Assembly: GCA_015491705.1 (NCBI GenBank)
Contig: WFVK01000061.1
Coordinates: 1-14,294 of the forward strand
DNA length: 14,294 nucleotides
Source: Nitrospirota bacterium
GTDB taxonomy: Bacteria > Nitrospirota > Thermodesulfovibrionia > UBA6902
Reading direction: 5' to 3'
Position numbers and translations under genes: made by a program. The notes beneath the pieces were generated by a model, which had not been told where the DNA came from, did not search any database, and was given only the letters and a program-made list of their open reading frames with translations. Below, piece after piece: positions 1 through 11,405 of this stretch (its first letter is position 1; the number at the start of each line of letters is the position of its first letter).

Positions 1-1
1 G

Positions 2-22
2 CATAACCTTAACGTTGCATAA
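2..22 (+). CDS. C-terminal end of an upstream gene (partial, tentative)
   Basis: Only the last codons are in the window. The frame ending in TAA at 20-22 reads HNLNVA. I propose it as a coding end because the same tail, encoded by the same repeat arm, ends the GT9 gene at 1521-2606 (GLNVA), and close variants end 342-1457 (KRNVA) and the WbqC-like gene (GLNAA). An earlier GCATAA at 1-6 in another frame could equally be the true stop. The product cannot be named from six residues. By context it is probably another glycan gene. Confidence 0.3.
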   Translation, partial: HNLNVA

Positions 23-25
23 ACC

Positions 26-100
26 GGCCGGAGAGCCCATCGTAAAACCTTTATAAAGCGATGGGATATCGGAAATACGTCTCTGTTGCAGGAAGTAACG
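26..100 (+). repeat. 75-nt direct repeat, copy 1
   Basis: This stretch aligns without gaps to 227-301 at roughly 80% identity. Shared blocks include CGTAAAACCTTTATA, AGCGATGGGAT, CGGAAATA and GTCTCTG. Copy 1 has a perfect 7-bp stem, 36-42 (CCCATCG) with 59-65 (CGATGGG). That pairing is not preserved in copy 2, which argues against a conserved RNA fold there. A diverged inverted version lies at about 140-189 on the minus strand. Confidence 0.7.
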
Positions 101-226
101 GGGAGTGAAATTGCAAAAGAGGTTGATATGCGTGCGGGGTATTTCCTCAGGGAATCGCAGATAAAGCTTTTCCGCCGGGCTCTCCGGCCTGCGGGCGATG
201 GTGTTATGCAACTATAAGGATAAGCA

Positions 227-301
227 GGCAGGAGAGCCTCCCGTAAAACCTTTATAGAGCGATGGGATGCCGGAAATATGTCTCTGCCGCAGGAGTCAAC
301 G
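227..301 (+). repeat. 75-nt direct repeat, copy 2
   Basis: This is the second copy of the 26-100 repeat, starting GGCAGGAGAGCC and preceded by a degenerate gene-end arm (GGATAAGCAGGC). It lies just before the first GT9 gene, and the longest reading frame of that gene (ATG at 267) begins inside it. I take the repeat as untranslated and prefer the start at 342. The whole 23-341 stretch is accounted for by these repeats plus the ribosome-binding region. No convincing sigma-70 promoter was seen in it. Confidence 0.65.
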
Positions 302-341
302 TGAAGAAGAGGGGCGCCCTCCGTGCCCGAAGGACGTGTTG

Positions 342-1457
342 ATGATCAGGTGCCTGCTGAAAAGGGGATACCTCGCAACAAGAAAGCTGGCCATGCTGCC
401 GTTCCGGGCATTCGTAAAAGAGGTGATGCCGGAGACGGCAGGGTTGAGAAACATACTTTTCCTGCGGCATGACGGCATAGGGGATATGGTGCTGTCCACG
501 CCGGCCTTCAGGGCACTGAAGGAAGGCATGCCGCATGCGAGGCTTACGGTACTTGCAAGTCCCCGCAACAGGGACATACTTTCCGGGAATCCGTTTGTGG
601 ACGAGGTGATGCTGTATGAACCGGGCCTTTCAGGCACGGTGAAGATTATAAGAGAGCTGCGGCGCAGATCATTCGATATTGTTATAGATCCCTTCCTCAG
701 CTATAAATTGCACACCGCCTTACTTGCCGTTCTCTCAGGTGCGGGGTACAGGCTGGGCTTTGCGGTCTCCGGCAGGGAAGTGTTTTTCAATCTCAGGTGC
801 CCGGAAGGCGACGAAAGGAGGAGCGTTTCCGCGCAGACACTTGATATGGCAAGGGCCCTCGGCCTGAATCCCCGGGATTCCATGCCCCGGCTGTATGTCT
901 CCGGAAGGGAGCGCGAGGAGGCGTGGGAGAATCTCCGGAAAAAGGGGGCAGTTAAAGGGGATATTCTGGTCGGAATTCATCCGGGGGGGCGTTATGAGAG
1001 CCAGCGGTGGCCTGCCGGCAGATTCGCCATGGCGGCGGATTACATGATATCCGTATACAGGGCAAGGGTTGTTCTATTCGGCGCAGAGGACGACAGGGAA
1101 ACCGTACGGTTCATCAGGAAAGTCATGTCCAACCGGCCCTTACTGATGGACGAAGCGGGCCTGCGGGCGTTCATTGCAGCCCTGAGCTGCTGCAGCCTCC
1201 TGATATGCAACAATTCCGGGCCGCTCCATATAGCTTCAGCCCTTGGTATTCCTTCCGTATCCACCATGGGGCCTACGGCGCCCCGGCTCTGGTGGCCCGA
1301 GGGCGAAGGCCATATTGTTATCAGGAAGAATCTGCCGTGCAGCCCGTGCGGTCTTCCAGCATGCAGGTCTCACGCGTGCATGAAACTGATTTCAGTGGAA
1401 GAGGTGTTGCAGGCGGCGGGTTCGCAGCTTGAGAGAATAAAGCGTAATGTTGCATGA
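342..1457 (+). CDS. Glycosyltransferase family 9 (ADP-heptose:LPS heptosyltransferase-like), copy 1
   Basis: The 371-aa GT-B enzyme is of the heptosyltransferase superfamily, which moves a sugar (classically ADP-heptose) onto the LPS inner core at the cytoplasmic face. The N-terminal acceptor-side motif RHDGIGDMVLSTP is at about 42-54, HPGG at 213-216 and the nucleotide-binding loop NNSGPLHIASALG at 290-302. A Cys quartet C333, C336, C341, C346 sits near the C terminus. I chose ATG 342 because AAGGA at 330-334 is well spaced; an in-frame ATG at 267 would add 25 residues encoded by a repeat. About 40 residues precede the usual GT9 start and contain a basic, hydrophobic helix that may contact the membrane. 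The tail NVA and its TGA come from the gene-end repeat arm. The exact donor sugar cannot be told from sequence. Confidence 0.88.
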   Translation: MIRCLLKRGYLATRKLAMLPFRAFVKEVMPETAGLRNILFLRHDGIGDMVLSTPAFRALKEGMPHARLTVLASPRNRDILSGNPFVDEVMLYEPGLSGTVKIIRELRRRSFDIVIDPFLSYKLHTALLAVLSGAGYRLGFAVSGREVFFNLRCPEGDERRSVSAQTLDMARALGLNPRDSMPRLYVSGREREEAWENLRKKGAVKGDILVGIHPGGRYESQRWPAGRFAMAADYMISVYRARVVLFGAEDDRETVRFIRKVMSNRPLLMDEAGLRAFIAALSCCSLLICNNSGPLHIASALGIPSVSTMGPTAPRLWWPEGEGHIVIRKNLPCSPCGLPACRSHACMKLISVEEVLQAAGSQLERIKRNVA

Positions 1458-1504
1458 GCCGGCGGGGAGGGCTGCCGTAAACCCCTCATGCTTTCCTGCC
1501 GGCT
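1445..1504 (+). repeat. Gene-end palindromic repeat, copy at first GT9
   Basis: The left arm TAATGTTGCATGAG (1445-1458) contains the TGA stop of the GT9 gene. GCATGAG (1452-1458) pairs perfectly with CTCATGC (1485-1491). As an alternative, AGCCGGCGGG (1457-1466) pairs with CCTGCCGGCT (1495-1504) with one G-U. The two pairings are mutually exclusive. CCGTAAACC in the loop resembles the CGTAAAACC block of the 75-nt repeats. There is no T-tract, so it is not a classical terminator. Confidence 0.65.
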
Positions 1505-1520
1505 GGCTGAATAACAGGCA

Positions 1521-2606
1521 ATGACAGAAAAAATTCTGGTGATAAACCTCGGGGGTATCGGCGATATCCTCCTGTCCGTGCCGGCGCTTCGCGCCCTCCG
1601 GCGGCGTTATCCTGAGGCGCGCATATCGCTGCTGGCCGTGCCGCGCACGGTTGAACTGGCGGGAGAGTTTGATTTCATAGATGAGGTCATATCATTTGAA
1701 TTTTATGACGAAGGGTCAAGGGGGTTTACTGCGGGGGCCGGTGCGGGAAAGCTGATTGGTCTTTACAGGTTTCTGCGGGACCTCAGGATGCAGCGGTTCG
1801 ACATGGCCCTGAATATGCGGACCCTCGTCTCCTGGGTGAGCGCTGTTAAAATGGCCGTGTTTTTCCGTGTTATCGGGGCTGGACACAATGTCGGCAGGGA
1901 TACGCAGGGGAGGGGCTTTTTCTTTGATACGAAGATCCGGGAGACCGATGCGGGGCGGAAACACGAGATGGAATACGATCTTGATATGGTAAGTGCACTG
2001 GGGGCGGATATTGCAGACATGGACATGGATTTGAAGATTCATGATAAAGATATGAGGAGTATAAGCCGTATTTTAAAAGACAGTGGAATATGCAGGGATG
2101 AGATCATAATCGGCGTCAACCCCGGTGGAATGCGCTCCCACCGCTGGCCGCTGAAGAATTTTGCCTCGGTCATGAACATGCTTGCCGGAAGGCTGAAGTG
2201 CAGGTTTGTGGTCACCGGTGGGGCGGCGGAGGCTGATCTGGCCGGGAGGCTGGAGAAAATGGTTAATACACGGATAATTGATCTTACAGGCAGGACCACG
2301 GTAAGGGAACTGACCGCACTGATAAAAAGATGCAGCCTCTATATCACCAATGATACGGGCCCCATGCATATTGCAGCGATATTAAAGACCCCCCTCGTCG
2401 CCATATTCGGGCCGGGCTATCTCGGGCGTTTCGACCCGCGCCGTATTTCCGGCAGGGCGGTGGTTTTTCACAAAGGGGCGGAATGCGCGCCGTGCAATAA
2501 AACGGTATGTGACTCCTTAAGATGTTTTGAGGGAATTTCCCCTGAAGAGGTGGCGGATGCATCTCTTCAGTGCTGTAAATCATCCATCGGCCTTAATGTG
2601 GCATAA
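1521..2606 (+). CDS. Glycosyltransferase family 9 (heptosyltransferase-like), copy 2
   Basis: This is a 361-aa GT-B glycosyltransferase of the same family as its upstream neighbour but clearly diverged. Motifs are LGGIGDILLSVPALRAL at about 10-26, VNPGG at 199-203 and NDTGPMHIAA at 277-286, the donor-nucleotide loop with the canonical D(T/S)GP form. C322, C325, C330 and C335 form a Cx2Cx4Cx4C cluster with the same spacing as in copy 1. The start is at the family's usual place, immediately before the first beta strand, with only a weak AGG upstream. The last residues LNVA and the TAA stop lie in a copy of the gene-end repeat. Two adjacent GT9 genes suggest sequential sugar additions, as with heptosyltransferases I and II, but specificity is not assignable and no gene symbol is justified. 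Confidence 0.88.
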   Translation: MTEKILVINLGGIGDILLSVPALRALRRRYPEARISLLAVPRTVELAGEFDFIDEVISFEFYDEGSRGFTAGAGAGKLIGLYRFLRDLRMQRFDMALNMRTLVSWVSAVKMAVFFRVIGAGHNVGRDTQGRGFFFDTKIRETDAGRKHEMEYDLDMVSALGADIADMDMDLKIHDKDMRSISRILKDSGICRDEIIIGVNPGGMRSHRWPLKNFASVMNMLAGRLKCRFVVTGGAAEADLAGRLEKMVNTRIIDLTGRTTVRELTALIKRCSLYITNDTGPMHIAAILKTPLVAIFGPGYLGRFDPRRISGRAVVFHKGAECAPCNKTVCDSLRCFEGISPEEVADASLQCCKSSIGLNVA

Positions 2607-2639
2607 ACGGGTGGGCAATGGTTTCATGCAACTGTAAGG
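2591..2639 (+). repeat. Gene-end palindromic repeat, compact copy
   Basis: The left arm CCTTAATGTGGCATAAAC (2591-2608) encodes the final LNVA and TAA of the GT9 gene. The right arm GTTTCATGCAACTGTAAGG (2621-2639) is its near-perfect reverse complement, leaving a 12-nt loop. The arm sequences match those of the 1-219 element, so this looks like the same terminal arms with a minimal interior. The following 37 nt before the next gene hold GGAGG at 2654-2658, too far from the start (about 18 nt) to be an ordinary ribosome-binding site. Confidence 0.75.
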
Positions 2640-2676
2640 GTTATAAGAGACAGGGAGGCTTTTACAGCGTACTGAT

Positions 2677-3744
2677 ATGAATGATCTGAAAAGAGATTAT
2701 CAGGACTTAAACCTCGTATGCCCCCTTTGCAAATCGCGCCTGTCTGCAGGTGAATGTTCATTCACCTGCACTGCCTGCGGCAGAGAGTGGCCCCTGCAGC
2801 AGGGGATCGTGAATTTCACCGTCTCCGCCGACACCTATTGGGGAGAGTATCCCGAGGATGTGATGGACGGACTGATCTTGCGGTGCAGAGAGGCCGGATG
2901 GAAGACCGCCCTTAAGGAATTTTTCGCGGAAAAAGACCCCCCGTATTATGACTACATTGTTAAGGAGGACAGGGCGGGCTGGCATTTTATCATCCCCCTG
3001 CACAGGGATGTGCGTGTGCTGGATGCGGGTTGCGGGTGGGGCACTCTGTCTTTTGCGCTGTCGAAGATTTACAGGGAGATAGTGGCCCTTGATACGGTCC
3101 GGCAGAGGGTGCAGTTTATTGATATCAGGAGAAACAGTGACAATGCAGGTAATATTTTCCCGGTTCACGGCCAGGTGAATTACATGCCCTTTCCGGATGA
3201 ATACTTTGACCTTGTCGTCTTCAACGGCGTCCTCGAATGGATACCCTGCATTGAAAAGGAAAAGGAACCGTGTGTTTCACAGATGGAGGCCCTGGATGAG
3301 GCAAGGCGCGTTTTAAAGAAAGGCGGACACCTGTATCTGGCCATGGAGAACAGGTGGTCGGCCATGAATTTCCTGGGATTCAGAGATCCCCATTCAGGGT
3401 TGCGCTTTGCTCCGCTGCTTCCGCGTTCCCTCGCTGATATATACAGCCGGCGTGCCAGGGGCAGGGATTTCAGGGAGTATACGTACACTTACCGTGAACA
3501 CCGGAGGATGTTAAGGGACGCCGGTTTTACCGGCATGAAGTTTTATGCGCCGCTGCCGTCCTACCGGAACTTTTACTATATCCTGCCGGTTGACAGTCCT
3601 TCGGTGATCAGGTTCTTTCTGGACCACCTGGTGTCCCCGAGGAACAATCTGCAGAGCTTTTTTGTCCATGCCGCCAATCTGTTTTTTCTTTACAGGTATG
3701 CAAGGTATTTTGTTCCCGATTTCAGTATAGTGGCCAGGAAATAA
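2677..3744 (+). CDS. Class I SAM-dependent methyltransferase with N-terminal zinc ribbon
   Basis: The 355-aa protein has a Trm112/rubredoxin-like zinc ribbon at its N terminus (C15, C18, C31, C34), then a Rossmann methyltransferase core with SAM motif I VLDAGCGWG at about 114-122, an acidic residue after beta 2 (ALDT, about 137-140) and post-motif FDLVVFNGVLEW at about 177-188. The C-terminal 130 residues are aromatic- and Arg-rich and unlike a simple ubiE-type enzyme. Zinc-ribbon methyltransferases of this shape occur in surface polysaccharide loci, where they are thought to methylate sugars or lipid-linked intermediates; the substrate here is unknown. The stop is 2 nt from the start of the kinase gene, so the two are probably co-translated and may act on the same molecule. 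No other in-frame start lies nearby. Confidence 0.8.
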   Translation: MNDLKRDYQDLNLVCPLCKSRLSAGECSFTCTACGREWPLQQGIVNFTVSADTYWGEYPEDVMDGLILRCREAGWKTALKEFFAEKDPPYYDYIVKEDRAGWHFIIPLHRDVRVLDAGCGWGTLSFALSKIYREIVALDTVRQRVQFIDIRRNSDNAGNIFPVHGQVNYMPFPDEYFDLVVFNGVLEWIPCIEKEKEPCVSQMEALDEARRVLKKGGHLYLAMENRWSAMNFLGFRDPHSGLRFAPLLPRSLADIYSRRARGRDFREYTYTYREHRRMLRDAGFTGMKFYAPLPSYRNFYYILPVDSPSVIRFFLDHLVSPRNNLQSFFVHAANLFFLYRYARYFVPDFSIVARK

Positions 3745-3746
3745 CC

Positions 3747-4595
3747 ATGTTTGAGCACAGGGGGGAAATCGGCAGCAACTGTATGTTCCACGGCAGCAAC
3801 AGCAGGAACACACTCTTTGTCTTTCAGGACGGTGATGCCGTCCCTTCATACCTGATCAAGATTTATGACAGGTCGCGGGAATCTCATTTGAGGCATCTCC
3901 GCGAACTGACGGAAAGGATAAACCTTCACGGCTCAGATTTGCTCAGGGGTTCCGTCCCCCGCGTCCTGCGCTGCGAAGAGGCAGACGGTTTTTACTTTGT
4001 CCACGAGGAATATATCGATGCAACGCCCATGGAGATGGATGCCCGCAGGTGGGGATTGTCATGGAAAAGAAACTTTCTGGATAACCTGAACCTGGCCGCC
4101 GCCTGGATAGGGCACTTCCATAAAAATTTCCGTGGTGGAAAGAGGTTCCTTTTCACCGGGGAGTATATAAGGTCTCTTGTTGAAAAGACGGCGGTGTTTA
4201 CGGAGCCCCTTTTTACTGAAATACCTGACGGGGATGTGGAAGTTGGCTCCGTGGTATCCCACGGCGATTTCAGGCCGGCCAATATACTGAAAGGGCGTAA
4301 AGGGATTTCTGTGATCGACTGGGATGACTTCCGGCTGGAGGGACTGCCGCTTTTCGACCTGATGGAGTTTGTCCTCCGTTATGTTCATTCGCACTATAGA
4401 CTCGAGAAAGAGAAGGTCGTGCTGGATCGGGAAGTCTTTCTGAAATACTTCAACATGTTTTACGTTAAAAAAAACCGGCTGTCCGAATCTGTCAGGAAAT
4501 ATATAAGGTCTTACGCCGGCTGTGCGGGTTTGAATGAAAAAGAGAGGGATACGCTGCTGTTGCTGTGGCTCTGTAATATGCTGCATATCTCTTGA
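3747..4595 (+). CDS. Aminoglycoside/choline phosphotransferase-fold kinase
   Basis: This 282-aa protein has the APH (protein-kinase-like) fold. The probable ATP-binding lysine is K38 (YLIKIYD). The catalytic Brenner-type loop is HGDFRPANIL at 172-181, with D174 as base and N179, and the metal-binding Asp is in VIDWDD at 189-194 (D191). Such enzymes phosphorylate hydroxyls of small molecules or sugars. In a glycan locus, LPS-core or sugar kinases and choline-kinase-like roles are more likely than drug resistance. The start ATG is 2 nt after the methyltransferase stop, indicating tight coupling. The final residues NMLHIS are encoded by ATGCTGCAT, faintly resembling the gene-end repeat. The substrate is unresolved. 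Confidence 0.78.
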   Translation: MFEHRGEIGSNCMFHGSNSRNTLFVFQDGDAVPSYLIKIYDRSRESHLRHLRELTERINLHGSDLLRGSVPRVLRCEEADGFYFVHEEYIDATPMEMDARRWGLSWKRNFLDNLNLAAAWIGHFHKNFRGGKRFLFTGEYIRSLVEKTAVFTEPLFTEIPDGDVEVGSVVSHGDFRPANILKGRKGISVIDWDDFRLEGLPLFDLMEFVLRYVHSHYRLEKEKVVLDREVFLKYFNMFYVKKNRLSESVRKYIRSYAGCAGLNEKERDTLLLLWLCNMLHIS

Positions 4596-4645
4596 ACTTG
4601 ATGCGGGAGGGGGTATCCTCTGTAATATCGCACAGGTAATGCCAT

Positions 4646-5305
4646 ATGCTTGAGAAGATATATTACCGGCTCCACAGAATGACATCAGGGCCTGGGGAAG
4701 AGGGAGAATATTCCTCCGGCTACTGGCAGCGCAGGATAAGGGAACGTGCCGTGGAGATTTGCAGGCAACACAGAGGCAGGCTCCTTGATGTGGGCTGCGG
4801 GGAGGGGCTGTTTCTCGGCCGGATGATGACGGCCCGCCCTGATCTGCAGGTGTGGGGGGTGGATGAATGGGAAGGGATTCTGTGCAGGGCGGAGAAAAGG
4901 ACGGCACGTATAAACTCCGGGGTGCGGTTGTTGAGGGCTGATGCCTCTGAACTGCCTTTTGAGGATGGATCTTTTGACGTGGTGGTGTGTATCAATGTGC
5001 TTTTCAATATGGAGTCAATCAGTGTGGTAAGGTCCGCCTTAAAGGATATGGCGAGGGTCTGCAGGAAAGGTGGAAGGGTCATCTTCGATTTCCGCAATTC
5101 CCTGAATCCCCTGCTTGCAGTCAAATACAGGCTTGCCGCCTGTTACGATCCGACTGTCAGGGGCCTGCCTTTAAATACATATGAACCTGATGATATAAGG
5201 GAAATTCTGGGAGAGACGAACCTTGACGTCGCCCGCGAGGAAGGCATGTTTTTTGCCGTGCGGAGATTTGCGCCCGTTATCATGATGGAAACAGTCAAAA
5301 AATGA
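4646..5305 (+). CDS. Class I SAM-dependent methyltransferase (UbiE/type 11-like)
   Basis: The 219-aa cytoplasmic methyltransferase has SAM motif I LLDVGCGEG at 46-54, the acidic residue D73 after beta 2 (WGVDEW), motif II region ADASELPFEDGSFDVVVC at about 98-115, and KGGRVIFDF at 141-149 as motif III. The substrate cannot be read from sequence. TGA overlaps the start of the aminotransferase by 4 nt (ATGA), and that gene in turn overlaps the radical SAM gene. The three are therefore translationally coupled, and the methyltransferase may act on the amino sugar they make. The 50-nt gap upstream has no strong ribosome-binding site. Confidence 0.8.
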   Translation: MLEKIYYRLHRMTSGPGEEGEYSSGYWQRRIRERAVEICRQHRGRLLDVGCGEGLFLGRMMTARPDLQVWGVDEWEGILCRAEKRTARINSGVRLLRADASELPFEDGSFDVVVCINVLFNMESISVVRSALKDMARVCRKGGRVIFDFRNSLNPLLAVKYRLAACYDPTVRGLPLNTYEPDDIREILGETNLDVAREEGMFFAVRRFAPVIMMETVKK

Positions 5306-6486
5306 TCAGGAAGATACCGGTCATCGGGTACAGGATAAGCCTCGCCGCCCTGGTTTCAGGCGTTACGGGTTTTTTTTCGCGCGGAGACAGGGATGAATTC
5401 AGGGATATCCTGGCCGGATTTGTTCAGTGCAGACACTCATGCCTGGTGAATTCGGGAATATCGGCCTTCTATCTGGCCCTGCTGGCGCTTAAAAAAATCT
5501 CCCGCCGCACGGAAGTGATCCTTCCCGCCTACACGGCGCCGAGTCTCGTTGTGGCCGTGAAAAAGGCTGGCCTTAAACCCGTGCTTTGCGATATCTCACT
5601 GAAAGATTTCAACATGGACATGCATGCGGCGCGGCAACAGGTTTCACGTAAGACCCTTTGCATTGTCTGCGTCCATATGTTCGGCATACCCGCCGGGGAT
5701 ATCGTGCGGTTTAAACACGGCCTGCCGGAAGATGTCTTTTTGATAGAGGACTGCGCGCAGGCCATGGGTTCTGAAATAGCGGGCAGGCCTGTAGGCGGTT
5801 TCGGCGACCTCAGTATTTTCAGCTTCAACAGGGGAAAAAACCTGCCGGCTGCCGGGGGCGGCGGGATATTCACGAACTCCGGCGTGCTGGCCCCCGTGAT
5901 GGAAGAGGTCGCCGGTGAACTGAGTGTCCCGGGACCAGGTTATGAGCTCAGGCTGTTTCTCGGGTTTGTCTGTCTGTTCATACTCTTCAGGCCGTTCTAT
6001 TATTCGCTGCTTTATCCCCTTGTTTGCAGATTCAGGGATGAGGGTGTCCCGGAGGATTTCACGGCAGAGGGATATACATCTTTGCAGGCAGGGCTGGGAA
6101 AGAGCCTTTTTGAAGGCTTTGGTGAATCATGTATGCAGAGATATGAGAATGCCATGGCGCTCATTGATGCGCTGGGAAACATGAAAGGGATAATTCTCCC
6201 CTGCATCCGCGATGATCTGCTCCCGGCGTTTAACCGCCTTCCGGTGCTGATAGAAAGTCCCGAATCAAGAAAAAGGGCCGAAAAGGAGCTCATGAGAAAC
6301 GGCATCGGCGTGTCCGGGCTGTATTTCAGACCGCTTCATCATATTTTTGACCTCGGATACAGCAAACGCGAGTTCCCGAATGCCGTCTACCTTGCAGAGA
6401 GGCTGCTGACCCTGCCGTCACACCCGCTCGTCGACAAGGAGACACTGGAAAAGATGTCCGCCCTGATCGGAAAGGTGCTGTCATGA
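5302..6486 (+). CDS. DegT/DnrJ/EryC1/StrS-family PLP aminotransferase with hydrophobic insert
   Basis: The 394-aa protein is of the sugar aminotransferase family that aminates nucleotide-linked ketosugars. Landmarks are the substrate/PLP strand VNSGISAFYLAL at about 49-60, ILPAYTAPS at about 73-81, the pyridine-nitrogen aspartate in IEDCAQAMGS (D150), and the Schiff-base lysine in FSFNRGKNL (K179) followed by the GGGG loop. Unusual for the family is a strongly hydrophobic segment at about 216-243 that could lie in or on the membrane. The N terminus (PVIGYRISLAALVSG) also differs from the usual family start. The start overlaps the methyltransferase stop by 4 nt and its own stop overlaps the radical SAM start by 4 nt. 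A run of eight T at 5370-5377 early in the gene is a possible slippage site. Confidence 0.85.
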   Translation: MIRKIPVIGYRISLAALVSGVTGFFSRGDRDEFRDILAGFVQCRHSCLVNSGISAFYLALLALKKISRRTEVILPAYTAPSLVVAVKKAGLKPVLCDISLKDFNMDMHAARQQVSRKTLCIVCVHMFGIPAGDIVRFKHGLPEDVFLIEDCAQAMGSEIAGRPVGGFGDLSIFSFNRGKNLPAAGGGGIFTNSGVLAPVMEEVAGELSVPGPGYELRLFLGFVCLFILFRPFYYSLLYPLVCRFRDEGVPEDFTAEGYTSLQAGLGKSLFEGFGESCMQRYENAMALIDALGNMKGIILPCIRDDLLPAFNRLPVLIESPESRKRAEKELMRNGIGVSGLYFRPLHHIFDLGYSKREFPNAVYLAERLLTLPSHPLVDKETLEKMSALIGKVLS

Positions 6487-7628
6487 TACCCCTGCGCAAT
6501 GCAAGGAGGTTTTTTTACAAGGCATGCAGGCAGCCGGGTTATGCATTCAGGGTCTTTTTCAGGAGGAGCGGCGCATTTGCCGGTTACCTGCTCTGCAACG
6601 GCAGGAGCCGTTATCCCGAGGCCATAACCCTCTTCCTGACACATCGCTGCAACCTCCGGTGCAGGATGTGCGGCCAGTGGGGTGAGAACGGAATTACGAA
6701 AAGACGGCCAGTCCGATATATAAACGAGTGCCTGCCGTTTGAAGAGCTGAAGAAAATAATAGATGACATTGCACCATTCAGGCCCAATATCACCCTGTTC
6801 GGCGGTGAGCCGCTGTTGCATAAGGACTGTGTCGAAATAATAAGATACATACATAAAAAGAATATGCACTGCCTGATGATAACAAACGGTTCGTTAATCG
6901 AAGGCGTTGCCCGGGAACTGGTGGATTCCGGCCTTGATGAACTGAACGTGTCCGTGGACGGAAAGGGGGCCATGCATGATGAAGTGCGGGGGATGCCGGG
7001 CCTGTACGAAAAGATAATAAACGGGCTCAGGCGGGTGAATCATTTCAGGGCGCGGAGAGACAGCAGGAAACCGCTGATTAATCTGCAATGCACGGTCACC
7101 GGCCATAATTATCGTCACCTCCACCAGATGGCGGGCGCGGCCCGGGAGGCAGGCGCCGACTCACTTACATTTCATAATCTTATTTTCATCGGCAGGGAGA
7201 TCATGGCGGGACAGCGGGAGACGGACAGATTGTTGAACTGTTCTTCCGAAAGCTGGGAGGGGTTTGTCTCGGACCCCTGCATAAACCCTGATGTGTTATA
7301 TGCGACGATTCAAGAGATAAGGAAAAACCGGGACGGGCTCCCCGTGGATTTTTATCCTGATTTTTCTCTTGATGAATTGAGGAGATATTACCTGGAGCCT
7401 TCAGGCGGATGTTCAGGCAGGTGTGTGAGTCCCTGGATGGCGGCTTATGTCTTTCCCGACGGAGAGGTGCGGCCCTGTCTGAATATGGACTATTCCATAG
7501 GCAATGTCATGAGAGAGAGATTTTCCGTGCTGTGGAATAATGCCAGGGCGGTGAAGTTCCGCAGGGCACTCAAGAAAAACGGAATATTTCCCGTATGTAT
7601 AAGGTGTACGGAGCTGTACAGGTATTGA
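6483..7628 (+). CDS. Radical SAM enzyme with SPASM/Twitch-like C-terminal domain
   Basis: The 381-aa protein carries the radical SAM CxxxCxxC motif in THRCNLRCRMC (C56, C60, C63), which binds the SAM-cleaving [4Fe-4S] cluster, then GGEP at 107-110 and SVDG at about 157-160. The C-terminal region has C310, C314, C332, C372 and C375 in a layout typical of SPASM/Twitch auxiliary-cluster domains (VFPDGEVRPCLN, then FPVCIRC). Family members include peptide maturases and sugar/cyclitol dehydrogenases such as BtrN. With a DegT aminotransferase directly upstream (ATGA overlap) and no candidate precursor peptide nearby, oxidation or rearrangement of a sugar is the more likely role. This is inference. 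A 50-residue N-terminal extension rich in Arg and aromatics precedes the barrel. Confidence 0.85.
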   Translation: MIPLRNARRFFYKACRQPGYAFRVFFRRSGAFAGYLLCNGRSRYPEAITLFLTHRCNLRCRMCGQWGENGITKRRPVRYINECLPFEELKKIIDDIAPFRPNITLFGGEPLLHKDCVEIIRYIHKKNMHCLMITNGSLIEGVARELVDSGLDELNVSVDGKGAMHDEVRGMPGLYEKIINGLRRVNHFRARRDSRKPLINLQCTVTGHNYRHLHQMAGAAREAGADSLTFHNLIFIGREIMAGQRETDRLLNCSSESWEGFVSDPCINPDVLYATIQEIRKNRDGLPVDFYPDFSLDELRRYYLEPSGGCSGRCVSPWMAAYVFPDGEVRPCLNMDYSIGNVMRERFSVLWNNARAVKFRRALKKNGIFPVCIRCTELYRY

Positions 7629-7636
7629 TATGAAAA

Positions 7637-7695
7637 CCTGCATGCTGCACGGGGACGGCCCGGCCGAAGCCTTTAAAGGTTAAAGCAGCAGCAGG
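7637..7695 (+). repeat. Degenerate gene-end palindrome
   Basis: CCTGCATGCTGC (7637-7648) pairs with GCAGCAGCAGG (7685-7695) with one gap. The left arm resembles the CCTGATGCTGCATAAG arm at 11345-11360. It sits 8 nt after the radical SAM stop and its right arm runs into the purine-rich ribosome-binding region of the GT4 gene, so folding could affect GT4 translation. Confidence 0.45.
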
Positions 7696-7703
7696 GGGGG
7701 GAG
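7693..7703 (+). promoter_or_regulatory. Ribosome-binding site containing a run of eight G
   Basis: AGGGGGGGGAG directly precedes ATG 7704. The Shine-Dalgarno match lies within the homopolymer at 7694-7701. Length variation in the tract would change SD spacing without altering the protein. Confidence 0.6.
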
Positions 7704-8915
7704 ATGAGGATCGCACAGGTAGTGACACGCATGGACTGGGGAGGTCCGCCGGATATTATCAGGACGATCTGTAAATCTCTTGCCTCCTCCCATAATGTGA
7801 AACTGATAACCGGCCCGACCGCCTTCCCGAGCCTCAGGACAAGTAATTTTCTGGATGAATTCAGGGATGGGCTGATCACGGTCCCACACCTGAAGAGAGA
7901 TATTAATCTGTTCCAGGATTTTCTGGCGCTTGCAGAGCTTTACCGTATATTCAAGAGAGAAAAGTTTGATGTTGTGCACACGCACACCGCCAAGGCGGGT
8001 TTCCTCGGAAGGATAGCCGCGCGGCTGGCCGGTGCCGGCAAGATCGTTCATACGCCGCACGGCCACAACTTTTACGGTTATTTCGGCCGGGCCGCCAGCA
8101 GGCTTCTGGTTGTGCTGGAGAGGCTTGCGGCCCGGATTACGGACAGGATAATTGTGCTGACGGAATCGGAGAAAAGAGACATGATTGACTGTAAAGTCGC
8201 CGGGGCCTCGCACATACTGGTCATCGACAGCGGCGTGGATATTGAGGCCTACACGGAGGTCGATATTGACGCCGGGAAAAAACGGGATGAACTGCGGGCC
8301 GGACGGGATACCTCCCTCGTGGGCATGATCGGCAGGCTGGAGCCGGTAAAGGGCCCGGAGTATCTGGTAAAGGCGGCGAGACTCGTGCTTGATGAATGCC
8401 GCAGGGTAAAGTTCCTGGTTGTGGGAGAAGGATCGCTGAGGGCCGGGCTGGAGTCCCTCTGCAGGGAGGCGGGAATTTCCGGCAAGGTTATCTTTACCGG
8501 CTGGAGAGAAGATATTCCGGAGATTTTAAGTTTGCTGGATATAGTCGTCCTGCCGTCGCTTAATGAAGCGGTGGGACGCGTGCTGATCGAGGCCGGCGCC
8601 TGCGGAAAGCCGGTTGTGGCGGCAGGTGTAGGCGGAATACCGGATATAGTAAGGGATGGACGGACAGGGATGCTGGTACCGCCCGGGGACGCGGTCAGCC
8701 TGTCACGGGCGGTTGTCGACCTCCTCGGTGACACGGAGAAGAGAGTGCGGATGGGCGAAGAGGCCAGGAGATGGGTGCGGAGATTCAGTTCCGACAGGAT
8801 GGTGAGGAAATTTTCAGGGGTCTATGAAGGACTGGCCGCTGAAGACCGGACCTCGGGGATAATGTTGCATAAACGGGCATTGCAGCCTGCCGGAAAGGAC
8901 GGTTGCCGGGAATGA
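7704..8915 (+). CDS. Glycosyltransferase family 4 (group 1) with repeat-derived C-terminal tail
   Basis: The 403-aa GT-B retaining glycosyltransferase uses nucleotide-sugar donors at the cytoplasmic membrane face. The N-terminal acceptor domain starts MRIAQVVTRMDWGG and contains HTHTAKAGFLGR at about 92-103 and HTPHGHNFYGYF at about 116-127. The donor domain has GRLEPVKG at 210-217, VGEGSLR at about 240-246, and the EX7E signature E288 to E296 followed by GKPVVAAGVGGIPD. The family fold ends at about 378. The last 20 or so residues (including GIMLHKRALQPAG) are encoded by a copy of the gene-end repeat read in a frame that avoids its stop. The stop overlaps the start of the WbqC-like gene by 4 nt. 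Acceptor and donor are unknown. Confidence 0.88.
   Translation: MRIAQVVTRMDWGGPPDIIRTICKSLASSHNVKLITGPTAFPSLRTSNFLDEFRDGLITVPHLKRDINLFQDFLALAELYRIFKREKFDVVHTHTAKAGFLGRIAARLAGAGKIVHTPHGHNFYGYFGRAASRLLVVLERLAARITDRIIVLTESEKRDMIDCKVAGASHILVIDSGVDIEAYTEVDIDAGKKRDELRAGRDTSLVGMIGRLEPVKGPEYLVKAARLVLDECRRVKFLVVGEGSLRAGLESLCREAGISGKVIFTGWREDIPEILSLLDIVVLPSLNEAVGRVLIEAGACGKPVVAAGVGGIPDIVRDGRTGMLVPPGDAVSLSRAVVDLLGDTEKRVRMGEEARRWVRRFSSDRMVRKFSGVYEGLAAEDRTSGIMLHKRALQPAGKDGCRE
8860..8892 (+). repeat. Gene-end repeat copy inside the GT4 coding end
   Basis: TAATGTTGCATAAACGGGC (8860-8878) is the standard left arm. Here the GT4 frame reads ATG TTG CAT AAA (MLHK) rather than GTT GCA TAA, so it passes through. 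CGGGC (8874-8878) can pair with GCCTG (8885-8889). No distal right arm was found. Confidence 0.6.
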
Positions 8916-9628
8916 TCGTAACAGTTCATCAGCCTCAGTATATACCGTGGCTCGGTTATTTCGACAAGATAGACAGGAGCGACTGTTTCGTGTTCCTGGA
9001 CCAGGTTCAGTACAAGGCCAGGGAATACCAGAACAGAAACATGATACGCACCGACAAAGGTCCGCTGTGGCTGACAGTGCCTGTCGTGTCAAAGGGGAGG
9101 GGCAGGCAGAAGATATGCGATGTGATGATAGACGACAACTCAGGCTGGCGGAAACGGCACTGGAGGAGTCTTCAGACATGGTACGGCAGGGCGGAGTTTT
9201 TCAGGGATTACGCCGGATTTTTTGAGGCGGTGTACAGCCGGAGATGGGAGAGGCTGATAGACCTGAATGTGTGCATCATCAGATTTTTCCTGAAAGTGTT
9301 CGGGATACGGGCAGCAGTGTATTTCGAATCGGAGCTGAACATCCATGCCGGCAGGACGGACCGGATTATACAGATATGCAGAAGGCTCGGTGCGGATACC
9401 TATCTGTCGGGCACGGGCGGGAAGAATTACCTTGAAGAGCGCAGGTTCAACGAGGCCGGGATAAGGCTGCAATACCAGGATTTCATTCATCCATGCTATA
9501 AACAGCGGTACACGGAAAAAGACGGCCTTTTTTTTCCGAACATGTCATCTCTGGACCTGTTATTCAATAAAGGGGGTGCGAGTATAAATGTCCTCAGAGG
9601 TGCAGGCGCCGGCCTTAACGCGGCATAA
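8912..9628 (+). CDS. WbqC-like family protein
   Basis: The 238-aa protein is of the WbqC-like family, found in O-antigen and other glycan loci, whose biochemical role is not firmly established. The N-terminal signature VHQPQYIPWLGYFDKI is at about 5-20, with FLDQVQYKAREYQNRN at 28-43, the conserved YLSGTGGKNYL at 164-174, and MSSLDLLFNKG at 211-221. I chose the ATG at 8912, which overlaps the GT4 stop by 4 nt (ATGA) and matches the family's usual start. An in-frame TTG at 8903 would add three residues. The last residues LNAA and the TAA stop come from the gene-end repeat arm. Coupling to the GT4 gene suggests both act on the same sugar unit. Confidence 0.85.
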   Translation: MIVTVHQPQYIPWLGYFDKIDRSDCFVFLDQVQYKAREYQNRNMIRTDKGPLWLTVPVVSKGRGRQKICDVMIDDNSGWRKRHWRSLQTWYGRAEFFRDYAGFFEAVYSRRWERLIDLNVCIIRFFLKVFGIRAAVYFESELNIHAGRTDRIIQICRRLGADTYLSGTGGKNYLEERRFNEAGIRLQYQDFIHPCYKQRYTEKDGLFFPNMSSLDLLFNKGGASINVLRGAGAGLNAA

Positions 9629-9637
9629 ACAGGCAGG
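9613..9637 (+). repeat. Gene-end repeat, left arm only
   Basis: CCTTAACGCGGCATAAAC (9613-9630) followed by AGGCAGG. It encodes the terminal LNAA and the TAA of the WbqC-like gene. AGGCAGG matches the copies at 226-232 and 11361-11367. No complementary right arm appears before the next start at 9673, so the copy appears truncated. Confidence 0.65.
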
Positions 9638-9672
9638 GGCAGGAGCAATTCAAAGACAGGGGGTCCTGGAGT

Positions 9673-10287
9673 ATGAACATACTGGCGGTAGGCGCACATC
9701 CGGATGACATTGAATTCGGATGTGGAGGGACACTTATCAAGTATGCCGAGAAGGGACATGATGTTTTTCTCCTTGTGTTAACGCGGGGCAATGTCGGCGG
9801 CGACCCTCGCGTCAGAACGAGGGAGCAGGAGGAGGCTGTGAGGTTCATGAAAGCCAGGAAGGTTTTCTGGGGGGACTTCGCGGATACCGAGATCCCGCTT
9901 AACAATGAATTGATCGCTGTAATAGAGAATGCCGTGAATGAGACGAATCCTCACATGGTCTTTTTCAACTATATTGACGATGTTCACCAGGACCACAGGA
10001 CAGCGGCCCAGGCCACTGTATCGGCAACGAGGTACCTGAAGGAAGTCCTGTATTATGAAGTGCCGACCACGCAGAATTTTGAGCCGGATGTGTTCGTGAA
10101 TATCACGGATGTCCTCGATAAGAAACTGGACCTCCTGAAACTGCACGCCTCACAGGTGGATAAGACGAGGGTGGAAAATCTTACCATAGTAGAGAGCGCC
10201 CGCTCATGCGCCAATTTCCGGGGCTTCCAGGGCAGGGTGAAATATGCGGAGGGATTCAAGGCCCTGCGCATACTGAAGGAGATATAG
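9673..10287 (+). CDS. PIG-L family zinc-dependent N-acetylglucosamine deacetylase
   Basis: The 204-aa LmbE/PIG-L enzyme removes an N-acyl group from an amino sugar conjugate. Zinc-site motifs are AHPDD at 8-12 and HQDH at 105-108, and GCGGTLIKYAEKGHDV follows the first motif as usual. Length is somewhat short for the family but complete, ending in a conserved-looking FRGFQGRVKYAEGFKALRI stretch. Position next to a WecA-like transferase suggests deacetylation of a lipid- or nucleotide-linked HexNAc during glycan synthesis. A BshB1-type bacillithiol role is possible but no BshA or BshC partner is recognisable. GGGGG at about 9659-9663 is the likely ribosome-binding site. The gene ends 4 nt before the next start. 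Confidence 0.85.
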   Translation: MNILAVGAHPDDIEFGCGGTLIKYAEKGHDVFLLVLTRGNVGGDPRVRTREQEEAVRFMKARKVFWGDFADTEIPLNNELIAVIENAVNETNPHMVFFNYIDDVHQDHRTAAQATVSATRYLKEVLYYEVPTTQNFEPDVFVNITDVLDKKLDLLKLHASQVDKTRVENLTIVESARSCANFRGFQGRVKYAEGFKALRILKEI

Positions 10288-10291
10288 GGTT

Positions 10292-11341
10292 ATGAACCCG
10301 CTGATCCCTTTACTGTTTTCCCTGCCGGCGGCTTATCTTTCAACATTCCTGTTCAGGAGAATCGCACTGCTGTGCAATGTCATGGATGTCCCGGACCACA
10401 GGAAGATACACCTGAACCCCATGCCTCTGCTCGGGGGGCTGGCGGTGTACGTTGCTGTAATCCTGGGGGTGGCATTTGCCCCTGCGGTCCTGCGCCATAT
10501 ACCCGGCATACTGGCAGGCGCAACGGTAATTTTAATAATCGGCGTCGTGGACGACTTTATGGGGCTTCCCGCAGCCGTAAAGCTGACAGGCCAGCTCGTT
10601 GCCGCGGCAATAATGATTTATTCCGGAGTGCGCGTCAGCTTTTTCCCTGATACATGGGCGGGTTACGCAGGGGAAATCATACTGACGCTGGTATGGGTCG
10701 CGGGCATTACCAATGCCGTGAATTACCTTGACGGAATAGACGGCCTGGCAGCAGGCTCCACCGCCATCAGCGCGGCTTTTTTTGTTATCGTCTCCTACAT
10801 CACCGAGCAGCCTCTGACAGGCATGACGGCCCTGATTCTGCTGGCAGGGTGCCTGGGGTTTCTGCCGCATAACTTTAAACGTGCAAGGATTTTCCTGGGA
10901 GATGCGGGCAGCACCTTTTTGGGCTTTATGTTGGCGGGAATAGCCCTTGCAGGCAACTGGGCCGAAGACAATATATTAAGGCTGAGCATCCCTGTACTTA
11001 TCCTCGGTGTGCCCATTTTTGACATGACCTTTACCACTGTAATGAGAATCAGGGAGAAAAAGGTCGGCACTGTTATGGAATGGCTTGAATACGGCGGCAA
11101 GGACCACTTTCACCACCGCCTTGTTGCACTGGGGCTGCGGCCCGCAGGAGCAGTGTTTTTTATCTGGTTCATTTCAATTGCCCTCGGCATAAGTGCAATA
11201 ATAATAACTTATGCGGAAAAGAGAGTCGAAGGTATATGGGCGATCATCCAGGCAGCCGTTATTTTCGGGGTAATCGCGGTGCTGATGGTTGTCGGGGCAA
11301 GGCGCCGCAGCGGCCGGAACATCCCGGACGGGGAAGGGTAG
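10292..11341 (+). CDS. WecA/TagO/MraY-family undecaprenyl-phosphate sugar-1-phosphate transferase
   Basis: The 349-aa polytopic membrane protein transfers a HexNAc-1-phosphate from UDP-sugar to undecaprenyl phosphate, the first lipid-linked step of O-antigen-type glycans. Motifs are DVPDHRKIH then PMPLLGGLAVY (about 32-53), the magnesium-site DD in VVDDFMGL (D87, D88), NAVNYLDGIDGLAAG (141-155), FLGDAGSTFLG (201-211) and the cytoplasmic HHRL at 274-277. About ten hydrophobic segments are visible. The HHRL form and the PDHRKIH motif fit the WecA/TagO branch rather than peptidoglycan MraY. Its gene follows the deacetylase by 4 nt. It is the last plus-strand gene and converges on clpX. Confidence 0.88.
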   Translation: MNPLIPLLFSLPAAYLSTFLFRRIALLCNVMDVPDHRKIHLNPMPLLGGLAVYVAVILGVAFAPAVLRHIPGILAGATVILIIGVVDDFMGLPAAVKLTGQLVAAAIMIYSGVRVSFFPDTWAGYAGEIILTLVWVAGITNAVNYLDGIDGLAAGSTAISAAFFVIVSYITEQPLTGMTALILLAGCLGFLPHNFKRARIFLGDAGSTFLGFMLAGIALAGNWAEDNILRLSIPVLILGVPIFDMTFTTVMRIREKKVGTVMEWLEYGGKDHFHHRLVALGLRPAGAVFFIWFISIALGISAIIITYAEKRVEGIWAIIQAAVIFGVIAVLMVVGARRRSGRNIPDGEG

Positions 11342-11344
11342 GCC

Positions 11345-11405
11345 CTGATGCTGCATAAGCAGGCAGGCGAACCCCCCGCCGGTGTCTTTATGCCGCTGTA
11401 TAAGG
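11345..11405. repeat. Gene-end palindrome between convergent operons
   Basis: The left arm CCTGATGCTGCATAAG (11345-11360) pairs with CTTTATGC and its flanks (11386-11405). Inside, CAGGCG (11364-11369) pairs with CGCCGG (11377-11382) with one mismatch, enclosing a C-rich loop. Neither side carries a T-tract. It could limit read-through or protect 3' ends on both strands. Confidence 0.6.

Follow-up and report, generated by a model that had tools for sequence, protein, structure and literature searches.

The 14,294-nt contig WFVK01000061.1 of a Nitrospirota bacterium (assembly GCA_015491705.1; this whole stretch is called the window below) carries copies of a short palindromic repeat that is dispersed through the genome and lies, between genes of one strand, almost always in the direction of those genes. 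The repeats are very probably miniature inverted-repeat transposable elements (MITEs), that is, non-autonomous elements of an IS1380-type transposase. The reading preferred here, to which we give a probability of about 0.75, combines IS1380-driven MITEs with selection on their orientation. A DDE transposase of the IS1380 type would act on ends CCTTAAYGTTGCATAAAC and CCTTACAGTTGCATAA and insert the element at TWAA with a 4-bp duplication. The strand opposite to the gene would carry something harmful to an operon, such as a structured RNA, a processing or termination signal or a wrong-strand promoter; purifying selection would then remove those copies that place this strand in mRNA, and a single orientation would survive within transcription units. 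MITEs of bacteria are commonly regarded as blind to orientation, and near-total co-orientation with genes is unexpected for ordinary transposable DNA.

Three genomes of one genus supply most of the evidence: that of the window (G000, 2.26 Mb in 409 contigs), G001 (JAADFS, ‘Deferribacteres’) and G002 (JALSHG, ‘Thermodesulfovibrio sp.’), G000 and G001 being draft assemblies of 85–89% completeness. A genome-wide search for the pattern TAAYGTTGCATAAAC with at most one mismatch gave 194 matches in G000 against 1 for the reversed pattern used as a control, which upholds the original prediction of a dispersed palindromic family that is not due to chance. The tie that was proposed to a glycan cluster falls away, since the family is genome-wide. 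Exact matches number 110 in G000, 182 in G001 and 85 in G002, and among the 117 other genomes (120 searched) they occur in four, with three in G106 (JAJRYC, ‘Nitrospirae’) and one each in G017, G027 and G030. Element ends were scored with left-arm and right-arm matrices and could be paired over up to 420 nt. The matrix scan covered 441 kb of G000 (contigs picked for containing exact matches), 257 kb of G001 (contigs C1–C20) and 485 kb of G002 (14 stretches picked for matches and 20 contigs taken by number), and found 182 paired copies (66, 19 and 97, respectively), together with 84, 25 and 54 single left ends and 38, 11 and 47 single right ends. The lengths of the first 119 paired copies (G000 and the first G002 set) range from 42 to 351 nt and cluster at 45–52, 57–67, 86–96 and 213–214 nt.

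The orientation rule is seen most directly in gaps between tandem genes, genes having been called with a purpose-made simple hexamer model. Here 116 paired copies share the direction of the genes and 4 run against it (97%; 40:2 in G000, 13:0 in G001 and 63:2 in G002), with a binomial p of about 1e-29; the orientation p values assume independent copies. One of the four opposite copies, in L064, looks like a false pair. The remainder of the 182 paired copies lie at contig edges (21), in divergent gaps (30) or in convergent gaps (11). The rule runs through every size class, with same:opposite counts of 17:0 at 36–55 nt, 20:0 at 56–75 nt, 33:2 at 76–110 nt, 8:0 at 111–205 nt, 24:1 at 206–220 nt and 14:1 above 220 nt, and single arms follow it too (left 67:6, right 41:9). 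Nearness to starts and stops was scored in the first set of divergent and convergent copies only: 12 of 16 copies in divergent gaps are nearer the start to which they point, the other start being more than 85 nt away in every case, and in convergent gaps the co-oriented gene has the closer stop for 6 of 8 copies. The rule relaxes as gaps lengthen. Counting paired copies and single ends together, opposite copies make up 1/56 in gaps below 50 nt, 2/42 at 50–100 nt, 2/56 at 100–200 nt, 6/59 at 200–400 nt and 8/30 at 400 nt or more, so that gaps below 200 nt differ from longer ones (5/154 versus 14/89, p = 0.0008). A control repeat family gave only three matches, too rare for a comparison of orientation.

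The rule extends beyond the genus and to recent copies. The consensus of the 213-nt form (type A) is matched in 12 of the 37 genomes searched in the taxonomic family, three of them from the genus itself, and in 5 of 15 genera; outside the genus the matches are mostly 69–78% identical, some over short stretches only. Two of the nine outside genomes (G011 and G024) have one short match each and do not enter the orientation count. The other seven hold 44 places, of which 31 are tandem in the same and 2 in the opposite direction, 6 divergent, 4 convergent and 1 at an edge. Among the best 30 of the 44 type-A matches in G000, which are 95–100% identical to the consensus and are treated as recent, tandem copies (95–99% identical) are 13 same to 1 opposite, a set that overlaps the 116:4 set; a further 8 same and 2 opposite have one neighbour only, 4 are convergent and 2 are divergent, both pointing toward the nearer start. 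Many copies show the rule in the three genomes, and smaller numbers show it in relatives from three other genera.

Placement at gene ends, as originally proposed, is frequent, with copies often directly behind stops on the gene strand (of the 116 co-oriented tandem copies, 12 at a distance of 0 from the upstream stop and 10 at a distance of 1), but copies are also found in leaders between divergent genes. For 11 of the 116, the reading frame of the upstream gene runs 6 or 16 nt into the element and stops there (at CCTTAA or GCATAA), so that the stop codon comes from the element. Mobile DNA is thereby shown to provide host genes with stop codons and C-terminal tails.

Several features mark the repeats as transposable. 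They have terminal inverted repeats, with 87.4% of the end helix paired in 30 copies, and the two ends differ consistently (CCTTAAY versus CCTTACA). The paired copies are short and have no transposase gene. In the first 119, an exact 4-bp duplication flanks 31, against a mean of 9.9 and a largest value of 18 in 1000 shuffles, the chance level being high because the sites are A+T-rich; duplications of 3, 5, 6 and 7 bp were not above chance in these copies. TTAA (12) and TAAA (7) are the commonest duplications. Left and right ends covary weakly in the 182 paired copies (11.37 of 14 versus 11.27 when shuffled, with 11 of 1000 shuffles as high). Close relatives, which the original prediction had named as a place where a lack of presence/absence variation might show, do differ: of 108 orthologous adjacent gene pairs, defined by reciprocal best hits in three genome comparisons, 28 differ, 15 have ends in both gaps and 65 in neither, where ‘absent’ means no end over threshold and would include degenerate copies. 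The first 15 of the 28 differing gaps were aligned, and several breakpoints are blurred by divergence. The clearest filled and empty sites are the clpP-tig gap, with a 60-nt copy in G002 and none in the window, and L043 2511–2566 against L185 (87-nt copy). The clpX-clpP-tig genes had been described as free of copies, which stands for the part that lies in the window, where none was detected, though not for G002.

A search of 61 genomes with the PF13701 profile points to a partner for the repeats. On L201 of G002, an intact 481-residue transposase lies within an element of 1531 bp that has TTAA on both sides. It passes the NCBIfam IS1380 model with 234 bits (cut-off 180) and belongs to Pfam PF13701, and the ends of its element, CCTTACAGTGGCATAAAA and CCTTAATGTGGCAAAAAA, match the repeat ends at 17/18 and 15/18 bases. 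Judging from these shared ends, a transposase of the L201 type is likely to move the repeats. Behind the IS1380 element, on the minus strand of L201, a 188-residue open frame reads like what we take to be a PIN-domain protein. Other candidate drivers were set aside. The IS1380 gene of G000 (C299) and a G002 fragment (C95) lack such ends; in L136, the IS3-type gene that lies between two arms was taken, by reading, for an insertion into a copy; and the other 57 of 58 widely spaced end pairs enclose host genes, judged from their first 90 residues only. Neither the target duplication nor the IS1380 partner had been noticed in the original prediction, and how strongly the copies follow gene direction had also escaped it.

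The window, in which 14 genes were called, illustrates the range of forms. Its features are as follows.

3–6, no strand: ATAA, the left-hand copy of the 4-bp duplication at the target, by direct reading; repeated at 220–223
7–219, plus strand: complete 213-nt type-A element with left end CCTTAACGTTGCATAAAC and right end TTATGCAACTATAAGG, 96% identical to the own-genome consensus
220–294, plus strand: truncated older type-A copy, beginning with the right duplication copy (220–223), 84% identical to positions 13–87 of the 213-nt consensus
1442–1459, plus strand: single left arm whose TGA (1455–1457) serves as stop for the glycosyltransferase (family 9) gene before it, with tail RNVA*
2591–2639, plus strand: complete 49-nt element whose TAA (2604–2606) serves as stop for the glycosyltransferase (family 9) gene before it, with tail LNVA*
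8857–8874, plus strand: single left arm within the 3′ end of the glycosyltransferase gene 7704–8915, read through (SGIMLHKRA...)
9613–9630, plus strand: single left arm whose TAA (9626–9628) is the stop of a WbqC-like gene, tail LNAA*
11343–11405, plus strand: complete element of the 61-nt class in degenerate form, 1 nt past the stop of a glycosyltransferase (PF00953) gene

All six left arms of the original prediction are recovered by the left-arm matrix on the plus strand, whereas a right arm accompanies only three, so that ‘complete’ applies to 7–219, 2591–2639 and 11343–11403 alone. The three single left arms (1442, 8857 and 9613) score 20–30, against a best score of −3 in the reversed window, and none of the three intervals holds a right arm over the matrix threshold. 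At up to three mismatches the window has 4 matches, with 0.01 expected. Two weaker candidates were rejected: with matrix scores of about −23 (7637, suggested as a degenerate arm) and −24 (4577, a possible trace), they lie far under threshold. At 11343, the model places the end at 11403 (61 nt) with a degenerate right end, and an end at 11405 fits TAAGG shifted by two bases. The copy at 7–219 has inserted into the left end of the older truncated copy at 220–294, with ATAA on both sides. No Rfam match above the gathering score (4227 families) was obtained in the window, in line with the earlier failure to recognise a named family; what had then been listed as ‘intervals’ are the distances between the arms of one element. 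The window starts 6 nt before a type-A copy, and 12 of the 44 type-A matches in G000 are cut at a contig end. The family offers both a candidate driver, IS1380, and an explanation for why this assembly is broken at a repeat.

Elements with related ends occur more widely. A sub-type in G000 (e.g. in L064, L090 and L060) lacks the type-A core and has instead a block like CCCTGTTTGAGGTTCAGGGGTT; of 27 matches to this block in the samples of the three genomes, 26 are close to an element end. The same left end with other interiors is present in two Desulfobacterales bins, one Deltaproteobacteria bin and three Nitrospirae/Nitrospirota bins. At L167:4747–4898 (Desulfobacterales) and L106:1514 (Deltaproteobacteria) lies a different repeat that shares this end, CCTTAAYGTTGCATAAACAACATGGC, the L167 repeat being a foldback with TGAA on both sides; the end family is wider than this order. 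A further repeat in G106 (L179, L180 and L181, equal to contigs L133, L161 and L120) has the same left end and an interior that begins GYACTCATRTTTAATCCGTCATTC; by reading, all three copies lie in gene direction. At L179:5419–5990 the peptide RNPLFIRSYVLT is repeated in two frames and has the look of a CRISPR-like array translated as if it were protein. L115 (JAADFL, ‘Deltaproteobacteria’ M_MaxBin.025) has a type-A copy with the interior typical of the genus and comes from the same sample series; it is probably a misbinned contig.

The stem of the 213-nt form bears on what the element might do as RNA. From 70 copies, 10 were removed by length and core motif to leave 60, and 30 diverse copies served for covariation; the stem structure was chosen on the same sequences that were used for the counts. 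In the 30 copies, 17 of the 33 pairs of the inner helix have changes on both sides, and over the whole structure (45 pairs) 122 cells are changed on both sides versus 40.7 when shuffled. The covariation score is 0.249 versus 0.113 shuffled, and sliding the partner destroys the covariation; further pair types, at 38 versus 41.3, are not above the shuffles in this stem. Parsimony on a FastTree tree of the 60 copies (24 pairs) gives 42 exact double changes. Read on the gene strand, changes to A-C (30) exceed those to G-U (8; p = 0.0005), and transitions in the unpaired apical part are even (156 versus 168). The rarity of G-U relative to A-C on this strand speaks against a hairpin that acts in mRNA; the asymmetry fits an RNA from the other strand, a hairpin in single-stranded DNA of that strand, or an accident of the subset. 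The consensus of this form folds more stably in antisense (−37.9 versus −33.0), and among the 70 copies folded singly the sense strand is lower in 34 and the antisense strand in 28. Across size classes, RNA stability favours sense at 36–55 nt (17:3) and above 110 nt (61:12), and antisense in the middle classes (18:11 and 25:15).

Purifying selection as the cause of the orientation rule has, in our judgement, even odds, and purging is preferred because the rule relaxes in long gaps; the A-C excess over G-U on the gene strand of the 213-nt stem also counts in its favour. A group of observations weighs against it, or against the IS1380 part of the reading. The recent copies are already co-oriented, so that selection would need to be fast, and the trend with gap size is also expected from insertion guided by transcription. 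Scans for terminators and sigma-70-like sites did not identify a harmful signal on the other strand, and the A-C excess is not general, raw counts in the 76–110-nt class (33 of 49 elements) being G-U 21 and A-C 13. Exact duplications are missing from 88 of the 119 copies. The L201 transposase has no match in the draft G001, and G000 has only a distant IS1380 gene (25–29% identity) with other ends; in these two genomes the driver is absent or unassembled. Two candidate causes of the orientation rule were rejected. G+C skew, or Rho acting on C-rich untranslated RNA, fails because the 76–110-nt class lacks the skew (18/49 positive) yet is co-oriented 33:2. Intrinsic terminators, with sense-antisense counts by class of 0-0 of 23, 2-0 of 34, 18-6 of 49 and 10-7 of 76, are not common to the classes. 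Sigma-70-like sites with at least 9/12 matches number 1-0, 0-0, 0-0 and 16-10, and those with at least 8/12 number 5-1, 8-0, 11-3 and 57-47, as raw counts without a shuffle comparison. The small sense excess at the lower cut-off would fit a gene-directed promoter, which would make opposite copies harmful, and is not relied on.

The bias could instead arise at insertion, if a transposase complex with unlike ends senses transcription (through an R-loop, the open non-template strand or RNA polymerase) and enters left end first. We regard this as possible, if rather improbable. Co-orientation of 13/14 recent copies and of 31/33 in other genera, the apparent co-orientation of the G106 copies with another interior and the consistent end difference would all be explained, but the target TWAA is nearly palindromic and we know of no IS1380 element that senses the direction of transcription when it inserts. 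Opposite copies do exist and are commoner in long gaps, though that fits biased insertion too. Another unlikely proposal is a structured RNA encoded by the 213-nt form on the gene-opposite strand, with the shorter forms as deletion derivatives. Its interior is kept across genera, the 42 double changes are exact, the A-C excess on the gene strand would mean that G-U is allowed on the other, apical transitions are even and the antisense consensus fold is the more stable; set against this, the asymmetry is not found in the 76–110-nt class, single folds divide 34 to 28 in favour of sense, the window has no Rfam match and correction of a palindrome at the DNA level also gives exact compensation. 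Less likely still is a mobile gene, in which the 213-nt form would code for such an RNA and be read from the strand opposite the host operon. If true, many mRNAs would carry its complement, one expressed copy or the insertion sequence itself could act in trans on much of the transcriptome, and opposite copies would be purged because the folded strand damages mRNA.

We are strongly doubtful that the repeats are sense-strand RNA elements, kept because their hairpins terminate, process or stabilise mRNA. They are read in the sense direction and often begin just past stops, and the compensatory stem and the 18 to 6 sense excess of terminator-like sites in the 76–110-nt class agree with such a function. 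The G-U deficit in the 213-nt stem is the reverse of what it leads one to expect, terminator-like sites are few in the other classes (sense 0/23, 2/34 and 10/76), copies also lie in divergent leaders and many orthologous gaps have none. Palindromes of the REP/BIME type, spread by a RAYT transposase, are hardly credible here: the repeats are likewise small, palindromic, extragenic and numerous, but they have a 4-bp duplication and two unlike ends in common with an IS1380 element. The GTAG/CGTC foot of REP elements (motif as given in the part of PMC3733652 available) is absent from the ends by reading, RAYT genes not having been searched for.

The repeats have parallels in several known systems. 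The IS1380 family, of which ISEcp1, itself among the plasmid matches, is an example, normally has ends that start with CC and a duplication of 4–5 bp. The present repeats start with CC and have a 4-bp duplication, and the L201 partner passes IS1380 models; they differ from that family in lacking a transposase, and the L201 protein is 21–26% identical to plasmid proteins among the matches listed (8 of 2994 records). The available part of PMC9208149 states that IS1380 elements are over-represented between genes of one strand and does not state their direction. In what was accessible of PMC10969869 the terms orientation and IS1380 are absent, and the corresponding part of PMC13367494 describes an orientation bias of another kind. 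The portions of the open-access literature covered (including PMC3110155 and PMC1590033) contain neither such a family in Nitrospirota nor a MITE with this orientation rule. ERIC (RU-1) and Correia (NEMIS) elements, in the sources seen in part, are also palindromic mobile repeats that may be co-transcribed with genes, and the effect of ERIC on mRNA depends on its orientation (PMC2229807, in part); the literature on these elements, so far as available, gives no near-total orientation rule. The orientation rule described here, which extends to other genera and has many replicates per genome, allows the effect of transcription on the insertion or survival of a transposon to be measured. The ends of ERIC and Correia are presumably different from those described here. 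Like small extragenic palindromes of the REP/BIME type the repeats are compact and intergenic; they differ in the 4-bp duplication and, by reading, in having no foot. RUP and BOX of Streptococcus pneumoniae, as far as the available descriptions go, are likewise short, non-autonomous, intergenic and present in many copies with IS-like ends. BOX, RUP and SPRITE do no more than follow the coding bias (61–63% lie on the leading strand), and gaps between convergent genes are enriched in them (PMC3049150, in part). In contrast, 97% of the paired copies in tandem gaps follow the direction of the genes in the family described here.

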